The notes below the pieces were generated by a model. That model was not told the origin of the DNA. It searched no databases and saw nothing but the letters and a program-made list of their open reading frames with translations. 64,000 nucleotides of DNA. Origin: Halorubrum salipaludis. GTDB taxonomy: Archaea > Halobacteriota > Halobacteria > Halobacteriales > Haloferacaceae. Of this stretch, positions 25,587 to 51,121 are shown piece by piece. Each line of letters opens with the position of its first letter. Position 1 is the stretch's first letter. A program made the position numbers and the translations under genes. The stretch lies in NCBI RefSeq assembly GCF_002286985.1, contig NZ_NSKC01000002.1:372001-436000 (forward strand), written 5' to 3'.

Positions 25587-25670
25587 GCGGACGGATATTT
25601 AGGGACGAGCCGGGTATCCCGGCGCTTGCAGATGTCTCCCGTGGCCGAATATTCGCTTCTTGATCGATAG

Positions 25671-26151
25671 CGGGAGTGGGTATAGCAAATTGGCTGTTCG
25701 GTTGTTTATAAGTTGGATCTGGGTGTTGCTGACGAGTGTTTATAAGTGAGCGACGATGCTGCGGTGAAGACCTGCAAAGCCCCACCTGCGAGGACTCGCG
25801 CGGCTCGCTGTGCGCTTCAGTCGCTCGCTTCGCTCGCTCCTTCCAGTGCTTGCGTCGCCGTGCTTCGTCCTCGCGGCAGCGAGGCGCTTCGCGCCTCTGG
25901 CAGCCGGCGGCTCCGCCGCCGGCGACTGCCCCTTTGAGTCCCACCCACACCGCAACCGCAGCCTCACGCCTCCCCAGCCTCGTCGGCCGGCGCTTATAAG
26001 CGCCGGCCGACTCCCTCGCGCGTGCTCCTCGGCCGCGAAGCGGCCTCGGAGGCACGCGCCACCGCGTCGTCATTTATAAGTGATCGTCGCCGTCGCTCAC
26101 AGTTCTTTTAAATATCCTCTCGCATCCACTACTCTGCAATACCCACTCCCG
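25671..26151 (-). mobile_element. MITE-like non-coding element, copy A (inverted)
   Basis: A 481-bp element in the convergent gap between the acyl-CoA dehydrogenase and the DICT gene. It is bounded by inverted repeats: CGGGAGTGGGTATAGCA at the left and the complement of CGGGAGTGGGTATTGCA at the right (16 of 17 match). Read on the minus strand it shows the same order of blocks as copies B and C: TATA-like boxes, the GGACTCAAAGGGGCAG-like core, then GGGGCTTTGCAGGTCTTCACC, then two further TATA-like boxes. It carries hairpins such as 25881-25897 and 25903-25923. No transposase or credible gene is present. Flanks: the 84 bp to the left and 45 bp to the right hold nothing recognisable. Target-site duplications were not evident. 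Confidence 0.7.
25982..26011. repeat. 30-bp perfect palindrome centred on CTTATAAG
   Basis: Inside copy A, 15 bases are followed by their exact complement, with GCGCTTATAAGCGC at the centre. The centre is a symmetrical TATA-like box that could serve both strands, or the whole could extrude as a cruciform or act as a hairpin in RNA. Copies B and C have CTTATAA boxes elsewhere but not this palindrome. Confidence 0.8.
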
Positions 26152-26196
26152 CCGTCGTTCACCGGCACTTCGGGGGAACGCAAATATCTCGCAGCC

Positions 26197-37460: not shown

Positions 37461-37599
37461 CGCCAAAGCGAGCGGTTACTGTGGATATCGAGACGATTGA
37501 TCCCGGGAGTGGGTATTGCATACCAGTAGCGGCGAGACAGTATTTGAACAGCCGTGAGCGACGGCGCCGATCGCTTATAAGGGACGGCGCGGTGGCGTC

Positions 37600-37721
37600 G
37601 CCGGCGGCGAAGCCGCCGGCTGTCACCGGGCGAAGCCCGGTTGCCCGAGGGACTCCGTCCCTCGCTGCCAGAGGGACCTTCGGTCCCTCGCTGGAGTCGC
37701 TGGCGCCGATGGCGCCAGCGA
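37600..37721. repeat. Array of five perfect three-base-loop hairpins in copy B
   Basis: Successive perfect hairpins at 37600-37620 (9-bp stem, GAA loop), 37625-37641 (7, GAA), 37647-37663 (7, TCC), 37671-37689 (8, TTC) and 37697-37721 (11, GAT). All have loops of exactly three bases, and stem sequences differ, so these are separate units and not copies of one stem. Confidence 0.85.
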
Positions 37722-37944
37722 CGAGGTTGGGGAGGTGTGAGGCTGCGGTCCCGCGAGCGACCGACGGGAGCGAGCGGGAGCACGGAACTCGCAGCCCGCG
37801 CAGCGAACGGTGCGAGGTGCGAGCGAAGCGAGCACCTCGACTGGCGAGCGGCGAAGCCGCGAGCCGCGAGCGAGCAGGACCGTCTTCCGGCGGTGCTGTG
37901 CAGGGTAGGACTCAAAGGGGCAGCCGCGAGGCGGGCAGAGGCGT

Positions 37945-38094
37945 TCACGAGAGAGGAGCTCTCGTGAGCCAATCAGAACGCTTCGCGTTCTGATGACGAC
38001 GCAAGCACCGCAGGAACGAGCACCGCGAGTGACGAGGAGCGTGGTTCGAAACGGCGGAGCCGTTTCGTCATCACGAGACGCCTTCGGCGTCTCG
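37945..38094. repeat. Second hairpin array in copy B
   Basis: Hairpins at 37945-37967 (9-bp stem, 5-base loop), 37973-37993 (9, TTC), 38047-38067 (9, GGA) and 38074-38094 (9, TTC). Three of four again have three-base loops and 9-bp stems. They flank AGCACCGC-rich spacer DNA between the two conserved blocks of the element. Confidence 0.85.
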
Positions 38095-38352
38095 AACGAC
38101 AGCGAGCGTGCGCCGTCCTCACGGCTGGGGCTTTGCAGGTCTTCACCACAGACACATCGATCACTTATAAATAGCCACCAGCACCACCACAATCTGACTT
38201 ATAAACAACCGACCCACGGAAATAATTCACAGACTCCCAAAATCGCAGACCATCGCGTCTGTGCTGAACGATCGCGTGTGTCAGACGGCCAACTGCTGGG
38301 GATTCAACGAATCGACGTAACCGCTTTCCCGCGCGGCGCCCAGCATCGGACA

Positions 38353-50663: not shown

Positions 50664-50672
50664 GACCGGGGT

Positions 50673-51100
50673 CGGGAGTGGGTGATCGGATCGTCGGTGG
50701 CGATACAGTGTTTAAACCGGCCGTGAGCGACGGCAACGATCGCTTATAAAGAACGCGCGAGGGACGCCGCGAGCGCTTTTAATCGCGAGCGGCAGCGAGG
50801 CGCGAAGCGCCTCTGGAAGCCGGACGTAGTCCGGCGACGAGGCTGGGGAGGGGTGAGGTGCGGCCGCCGTGCGGGGTGGGACTCAAAGGGGCAGCCGCGA
50901 GGCGGGCGCAGGTGACGTAAGCACCGCAGCGAAAGAGCGAAAGCGACTGAGCGAGGAGCGCAACAAGCGTGCGCCCGCCTCGTGGCTGGGGCTTTGGAGA
51001 TCTTCACCACAGACACATCGATCACGTATAAACACCCGACAGCAACACCTTTCGATCCCGTATAAATAGCTGATCAGCCAACGTACAATACTTACTCCCG
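50673..51100 (+). mobile_element. MITE-like non-coding element, copy C
   Basis: A 428-bp copy in the gap after gcvT. The left end CGGGAGTGGGT (50673-50683) and the right end, the complement of CGGGAGTAAGTATTGTA (51084-51100), are the terminal inverted repeats. In order it has GTGAGCGACGGC, CGCTTATAAA, hairpins at 50797-50813 (GAA loop) and 50819-50835 (GTA loop), GGCTGGGGAGGGGTGAGG, the GGACTCAAAGGGGCAGCCG core at 50878, GGGGCTTTGGAGATCTTCACC and the paired TATAAA boxes. No gene is present. The conserved inner blocks match copy B base for base over long stretches. Confidence 0.72.
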
Positions 51101-51121
51101 CCGTCGATCGGGAAGCACTGT

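Follow-up and report, generated by a model that had tools for sequence, protein, structure and literature searches.

Copies A, B and C of a hairpin-bearing repeat in the window (the whole 64,000-nucleotide stretch of Halorubrum salipaludis DNA analysed here) probably represent two nested things: a non-coding haloarchaeal scaffold that acts as a single strand and, inside it, mobile double-hairpin elements of 47-60 bp. For the scaffold we observed many copies, a conserved core, a compensated long stem, tandem G-A hairpins on one strand only, whole copies that one species has and another lacks, and a TATA-like box; for the units, sites that are cleanly filled in some paralogous or orthologous copies and empty in others, and a spread over many genera and settings. 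There is good support for the units being mobile; transposition itself was not observed, and no enzyme that would move them was identified.

Between 37600 and 38094, copy B held exactly eight perfect hairpins with a stem of at least 7 bp and a three-base loop, their loops running GAA, GAA, TCC, TTC, GAT, TTC, GGA, TTC in the order given by the initial annotation, with stems of 7-12 bp and not the 7-11 bp reported there. The two hairpins that it assigned to each of copies A and C were recovered at the same positions (Table 1), and the GAGGCGC hairpin that it took to be common to A and C is indeed shared once the strand of A is turned to match. The hairpin it described as common to A and B has the GCCGGCGGC stem in both copies, with different loops. 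Copy B also contains three hairpins not noted before, each with tandem G-A mismatches within the stem and a three-base loop.

Across 80 element copies of this genome, palindromes with a three-base loop and a stem of at least 7 bp (triloop palindromes) occurred at 1.91/kb, compared with 0.23/kb in the flanks of these copies, 0.20/kb in the rest of the window and 0.11/kb in first-order Markov shuffles of the same composition. Other intergenic DNA of equal GC content gave 0.50/kb, or 0.58/kb where GC exceeded 60%, so that the proposed enrichment inside the element held and the finding that would have refuted it, the same density in intergenic DNA of equal GC, was not met. About one-third of the matches in other intergenic DNA were identical cassette hairpins outside recognisable copies, and relative to intergenic DNA the element is enriched 3-4 fold rather than 10 fold. 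The favoured loop length was three, with every other length at or below 0.47/kb inside the element. The spread was uneven: 36 of the 80 copies had no triloop palindrome and the maximum in one copy was seven. Since the copies are related to one another, these counts are not independent events; gene boundaries for the intergenic and convergence tests came from a simple GC3 caller, the source genome was analysed only in the stretches around element copies, and several searches used exact patterns, which undercounts diverged copies.

A C-G pair closed the loop in 106 of the 110 triloop palindromes of the copies, and the loop was GNA or its complement TNC in 79 (47 GNA, 32 TNC) and neither in 31; in the flanks, 3 of 26 had GNA and none of 26 had TNC. 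One stem may carry up to ten different loops. The suggestion that constant loop length with varied stems is unusual was right, and it can be read physically from these mostly C-GNA-G loops or their complements. C-GNA-G is an exceptionally stable DNA mini-hairpin (PMC4686876), and that paper gives 78 C as the melting temperature of a GCGAAGC fragment (citing Hirao 1994 and Yoshizawa 1997). The three-base C-GNA-G loop is the tightest and most stable DNA turn, and this would account for a constant loop length with free stem sequence. Among triloop hairpins with one defect, G-T (18) was as frequent as A-C (19), the result expected where base pairing counts at the DNA level, whichever the strand, rather than within a single RNA. 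Both strands of the F1 and F2 units (Table 1) fold equally well as DNA, with z of about -5 to -6.

The hairpins come in pairs. In 204 copies, 171 of 269 triloop hairpins lay within 12 nt of another, and the gap was 4-7 nt in 94 of 95 close pairs (5 nt in 59). What moves is thus in most cases a two-hairpin unit of 47-60 bp, with 4-7 bases separating the hairpins; this pairing with sharply set linkers rules out the single hairpin as the cassette unit. Loop-proximal stem bases vary in pairs (GCCGGCGGC, GCCGGCGC, GCCGGAC; GAGGGACC, GAGGCGC, GAGAATC), and the second F1 stem varies with compensation (GAACGC, GAAATC, GGTTTC, GAACGGC, GAACCC). The units end in TT...GACG, TGGTT...ACGA, TCGCC...GCTG or AGGGC...TGAC, and no inverted terminal repeat was seen at the ends of the four types. 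There was no constant target-site duplication; short end repeats vary by type (GAC, CG, CATC). HP2, a hairpin at a fixed site, is in many copies a loop-free palindrome centred on TTATAA, which places a TATA-like box at the palindrome tip.

Table 1. Scaffold copies, hairpin units and related sequences (window coordinates unless a locus or genome is named)
Feature	Position	Strand	Details
Copy A of scaffold, 483 bp	25670..26152	-	inverted ends GCGGGAGTGGGTATTGCA / TGCTATACCCACTCCCGC
Copy A core motif	25926..25940	-	GACTCAAAGGGGCAG; partner GGGGCTTTG 25766-25783
Copy A F3 cassette, 49 bp	25877..25925	-	hairpins 25903-25923, 25881-25897; linker TGCCA
Copy A HP2, single fixed-site hairpin	25982..26011	-	loop-free palindrome, TTATAA centre
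Copy B of scaffold	37503..38245	+	left inverted end 37503; right end diverged; homology to copy A to about 38245
Copy B chain of four triloop hairpins	37598..37695	+	37600-37620, 37625-37641, 37646-37664, 37671-37689; two F3-like units in series
Copy B HP2	37696..37722	+	12-bp stem, loop GAT
Copy B three purine-rich tandem-G-A hairpins, three-base loops	37749..37865	+	37749-37779, 37813-37839, 37843-37865
Copy B core motif	37909..37923	+	GACTCAAAGGGGCAG; partner GGGGCTTTG 38127-38144
Copy B F1 cassette, 55 bp	37944..37998	+	TTCACGAGAG...GATGACG
Copy B F2 cassette, 58 bp	38042..38099	+	TGGTTCGAAACGGC...CTCGAACGA
Copy C of scaffold, 430 bp	50672..51101	+	
Copy C double hairpin	50797..50835	+	50797-50813, 50819-50835; linker TGGAA; F3-type, reverse orientation
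Copy C core motif	50880..50894	+	GACTCAAAGGGGCAG; partner GGGGCTTTG 50988-51005
Scaffold core stretch			GGGTGGGACTCAAAGGGG...GGGGCTTTG
Scaffold end sequence			GATCGATAGCGGGAGTGGGTATTGCA
F1, 55 bp			TTCACGAGAGC-NNN-GCTCTCGTG-(AGCCA or CAGCCCA)-TCAGAACGC-NNN-GCGTTCTGA-GACG
F2, 58-60 bp			TGGTTCGAAACGGC-NNN-GCCGTTTCG-TCATCA-CGAAAGGCGC-NNN-GCGCCTTTCGAACGA
F3, 49-50 bp		both orientations	TCGCCGGCGGC-NNN-GCCGCCGGC-TGCCA-GAGGGACC-NNN-GGTCCCTCGCTG
F4, 47 bp			AGGGCGAGAGC-NNN-GCTCTCGC-TTGCA-ACCGGAC-NNN-GTCCGGTGAC
Empty cassette site sequences			GGCGACGCAAG, GAGGAGCGCAGCGAG
Head-to-head core pairs	L339, L349, L353 (about 1500-1560)		places in G221, G266, G363, G390, G420
Tandem units 3' of core	L036, L039, L043		e.g. 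G000:C1:107915-108103

Filled and empty sites were compared among paralogous copies and among orthologous copies, the latter located in other Halorubrum species via their flanks. The F4 site was filled in 4 and empty in 9 paralogous copies with an identical 20 nt 5' of the site, and filled and empty paralogues within one genome differ by exactly 47 bp. The F1 site (GGCG / ACGYAAG) was filled in 7 copies and empty in 63, the remaining copies not being classifiable by pattern, and the F2 site (GAGGAGCG / CAGCGAG) was filled in 7 and empty in 118. Between orthologues, an exact 117-bp block between GAGGAGCG and CAGCGAGCG was present in L033 and absent from L194; this block is F2 with a second unit nested in its linker, with CATC on either side of the nested unit. 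L107 has a double hairpin 3' of GGCGCGAG that orthologous L131 lacks, and L132 carries a unit missing from orthologous L093. The comparison of L059 with L198 was not usable, as the L198 copy is inverted and the stretch contains Ns. Both hairpins of a unit appear or disappear together. The earlier proposal of small palindromic cassettes gained and lost within a constant scaffold is borne out by these filled and empty orthologous copies, and the alignment suggested as its check does reveal clean differences in whole units, but the unit is usually a hairpin pair and not a single hairpin, it is not confined to the scaffold, and some of the variation concerns sequence differences in a single hairpin at a fixed site, not its presence or absence. 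These differences between copies carry no tree-based polarity of gain or loss.

The units also occur outside the scaffold. With any loop allowed, the first F1 hairpin matched in 117 of 391 haloarchaeal genomes, from 40 of 86 genera, and its reversed control in none. The surroundings of this hairpin differ widely, while the linker and two-hairpin plan recur across unrelated contexts and genera. Within a transposase-like sequence, Natrinema (L254) has an empty F1 site that is occupied in Haloferax (L257) and another genome (L265), and a unit in Natronomonas (L253) lies within a hairpin that is intact in Haladaptatus (L255). The strict F2 pattern, searched across the phylum, matched only in Halorubrum (5 of 393 genomes); as this pattern accepts a single linker and a single version of one stem, it is a poor guide to the range of F2, and Haladaptatus and Halomontanus do have F2-like units whose second stem is different. 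Existing inverted repeats were rejected as a general insertion target on the flanks of 24 F1 sites, which showed no general excess of complementarity (4.92 nt against 4.85 nt when shuffled); some sites in transposase genes do fit insertion at near-terminal palindromes of other elements, the target of SMR-A in Haloquadratum.

The PATEs of Haloquadratum, which have near-terminal palindromes and neither inverted terminal repeats nor target duplication, include terminal-only forms of 52 bp that are maybe mobile (PMC3119063), and the cassettes could be of this kind: two near-terminal IS200/IS605 palindromes fused by loss of the core and moved by its TnpA. The size, the two-palindrome plan and the absence of a clear target duplication at cassettes agree with such an origin, yet nine Y1/TnpB loci (from six Halorubrum genomes, no other genus being included) lacked these triloop palindromes at the element ends and had no matching IS605 terminal palindromes, the F1-like pair found at one of the nine lay more than 1 kb from the gene, and Y1 genes were absent from genomes with 33-74 scaffold copies. 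We consider this derivation possible and on the whole unlikely. Four genomes with 33-74 copies and no PF01797 match also rule out a Y1 transposase as the driver of copy number. That Y1 transposase genes do not track scaffold copy number counts against our preferred reading of mobile double-hairpin units within a scaffold as well, and the spread of a cassette inside one genome could also be due to gene conversion among copies.

The scaffold itself is abundant. Its core motif GACTCAAAGGGGCAG has at least 90 exact copies in this genome and 130 sites at two mismatches, against 11 in the control, and the exact core was found in 47 of 52 Halorubrum genomes, where copy numbers run from 0 to 138, while the 118 genomes examined from the rest of the family lacked it; all named matches to it were Halorubrum. 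Restriction of the scaffold to Halorubrum is true of this exact core and false for the family, as the core with one base pair exchanged, GTGGGA[AC]TGAAAGGGGC...GGGGCTTTC, was present in 185 of 391 genomes, which belong to 62 of 86 genera (control 0). The locus of copy C is empty in two sister species with matching neighbour genes. The base length is 428-441 bp and is longer where cassettes are present; both inverted ends were found in 19 of 149 Halorubrum copies, most copies having no recognisable ends. A TATA-like box was present in 117 of 171 copies, its commonest position being 11-16 nt upstream of the first conserved stem; a control stretch gave 8 of 171. Of 75 scaffold copies, 39 lay between convergent genes, compared with 8 of 34 background gene pairs by a rough gene caller; copies A, B and C of the window are among these placements, and the scaffold rate is about twice the background.

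Several variants of this architecture were seen. The 5' flank, with the inverted end, TATTTAAA and GTGAGCGACGGCGACGATCGCTTATAAA (window 37500-37600 and 26080-26152), is optional, and many copies begin at the TATA-like box. In some other haloarchaeal genera scaffold cores form head-to-head pairs separated by about 44 bp, the short spacer between them being partly palindromic, and one locus (L335) has two cores tail to tail. Many Halorubrum copies carry 57- or 72-bp tandem units 3' of the core, each with GGGGCTTTGG and a TTTATAA box; the units of one locus are nearly identical to each other and unlike those of other loci, a pattern of local concerted evolution. In some genera (L330, L332, L333, L337, L340, L341) the G-rich core is unchanged but surrounds another inner part, ...CCCCTATC...GATATGTCGCTGAGCGACC..., in place of the GACGYAAGCACCGCA part.

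No Rfam family scored above its gathering threshold; the scores below it were read as chance, and on this ground no known RNA family was recognised in the scaffold. Halovirus intergenic repeats were rejected as a source, the phage search being empty and the HF1 repeats being AT-rich promoter regions. A plasmid search with the scaffold end, limited to plasmids, gave no parent transposon, and no partner protein of the scaffold is known.

In 184 Halorubrum copies, whose left arms come in 51 distinct forms, the stem above the core was 92% Watson-Crick, compared with 75% when the arms were shuffled, and 91% against 51% in other genera; the foot of the lower helix changes from C-G in Halorubrum to G-C elsewhere. 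Triloop hairpins interrupted by tandem G-A numbered 114 on the core strand and one on the opposite strand. From these one-strand hairpins and the stem pairing data we infer that the scaffold acts on one strand, as RNA or single-stranded DNA. G3-N(1-5)-G3 stood directly before ACTC in 79 of 80 own copies compared with 5 of 247 other GACTC sites, and GGGG.TTTG followed downstream in 78 of 80; with the GGG/GGG internal loop these make four G-tracts, which could possibly form a quadruplex. Because the search pattern of the stem-pairing analysis demanded the G-runs in the internal loop, their invariance in that analysis is no evidence. Going further, we entertain as speculation only that the scaffold is a class-wide haloarchaeal structured nucleic acid with a three-layer G-quadruplex core of four conserved G-tracts (GGG-N-GGG ... 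GGG[long hairpin]GGG), an AAAG/CTTT helix on one side and a freely changing helix on the other, suited to molar potassium, and that it serves as landing platform for a separate, ssDNA-moving double-hairpin family that reads only hairpin shape and the three-base turn.

These properties also bear on a rival account, in which the scaffold encodes a functional RNA and the hairpins are its expansion segments, variable in the manner of RNA stems and spread by gene conversion alone between copies of the scaffold. The non-standard pairs of the main Halorubrum stem (45 G-U against 7 A-C), the G-A hairpins on one strand and the TATA-like box at a near-fixed distance would fit such an RNA; against it, 37 of the 45 G-U cells fall at a single position, the triloop hairpins have no G-U excess, identical units occur away from the scaffold in other genera, and three-base loops are not the usual stable RNA loops, all of which leaves this account improbable. 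Formation of the palindromes in place by replication template switching without mobility, with the scaffold offering a recurring seed sequence, would suit perfect stems whose loops vary and flip (up to ten per stem) but can hardly be right, as different genera and unrelated settings share the two-hairpin units together with their linker, and both hairpins of a unit are gained or lost jointly; it is already strained by the shared linkers at unrelated sites, which would need another cause.

Under the preferred reading of a single-strand-acting scaffold with mobile double-hairpin units, the G-rich scaffold strand would be transcribed, or exposed as single-stranded DNA, and the folded strand would be what is recognised, which is an inference. 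In a mobile unit, a linker of 4-7 nt would join two perfect triloop hairpins, with short unpaired feet; insertion would be precise and, within the scaffold, limited to a few sites, with other units and the rest of the genome as further targets. We infer that units may move as folded single-stranded DNA through an enzyme that acts in trans and recognises the shape of the hairpin, whatever its stem sequence; movement via RNA or repair-linked copying is not excluded. Stems may stay perfect either by acceptance of paired units only or by hairpins templating their own correction, and the scaffold may tolerate units because what they lengthen are loops or junctions in its folded form.

Among known systems, the repetitive hairpin-forming or double-hairpin elements of mitochondria (Allomyces, sponges, yeast GC clusters) are most alike in workings: they are very short units of two stable hairpins without a coding gene, optional between close relatives and inserted at many places, including each other. 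Unlike them, the cassettes lie in archaeal chromosomes and plasmids, are concentrated in one structured repeat and have a strict three-base loop of C-GNA-G type and a fixed linker; the likeness is one of plan only, with no sequence comparison behind it. The nearest haloarchaeal kinds are the PATEs and SMRs of Haloquadratum, for which the defining tests that were run came out unmet. SMR-A and SMR-B are likewise tiny non-coding elements that insert into other elements and have no known enzyme, but they measure about 80-110 bp with inverted terminal repeats, which the cassettes lack, and the scaffold differs from them in its length of about 430 bp, the minority of copies with inverted ends and the lack of a fixed duplication. 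The scaffold resembles MITEs in being non-coding and multicopy with inverted ends in some copies, and is unlike them in that no parent transposon was found, target duplication is not constant and most copies have no recognisable ends. With REP/BIME sequences it shares abundant extragenic palindromes, often between convergent genes; unlike REP/BIME with RAYT, the number of Y1-type transposases is unrelated to its copy number and the composite structure is far larger.

No earlier description of the cassettes or scaffold was found in the open-access literature searched (subscription papers and ISfinder were outside its scope), and the scaffold is thus a very abundant structured repeat without an Rfam match or a description found there. 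The triloop signature offers a simple way of finding double-hairpin units. If our reading is true, tiny two-hairpin mobile elements, discussed for mitochondria and other organelles in the papers found, would also occur throughout an archaeal class, and their mode of movement would become testable in archaea with genetics, such as Haloferax.
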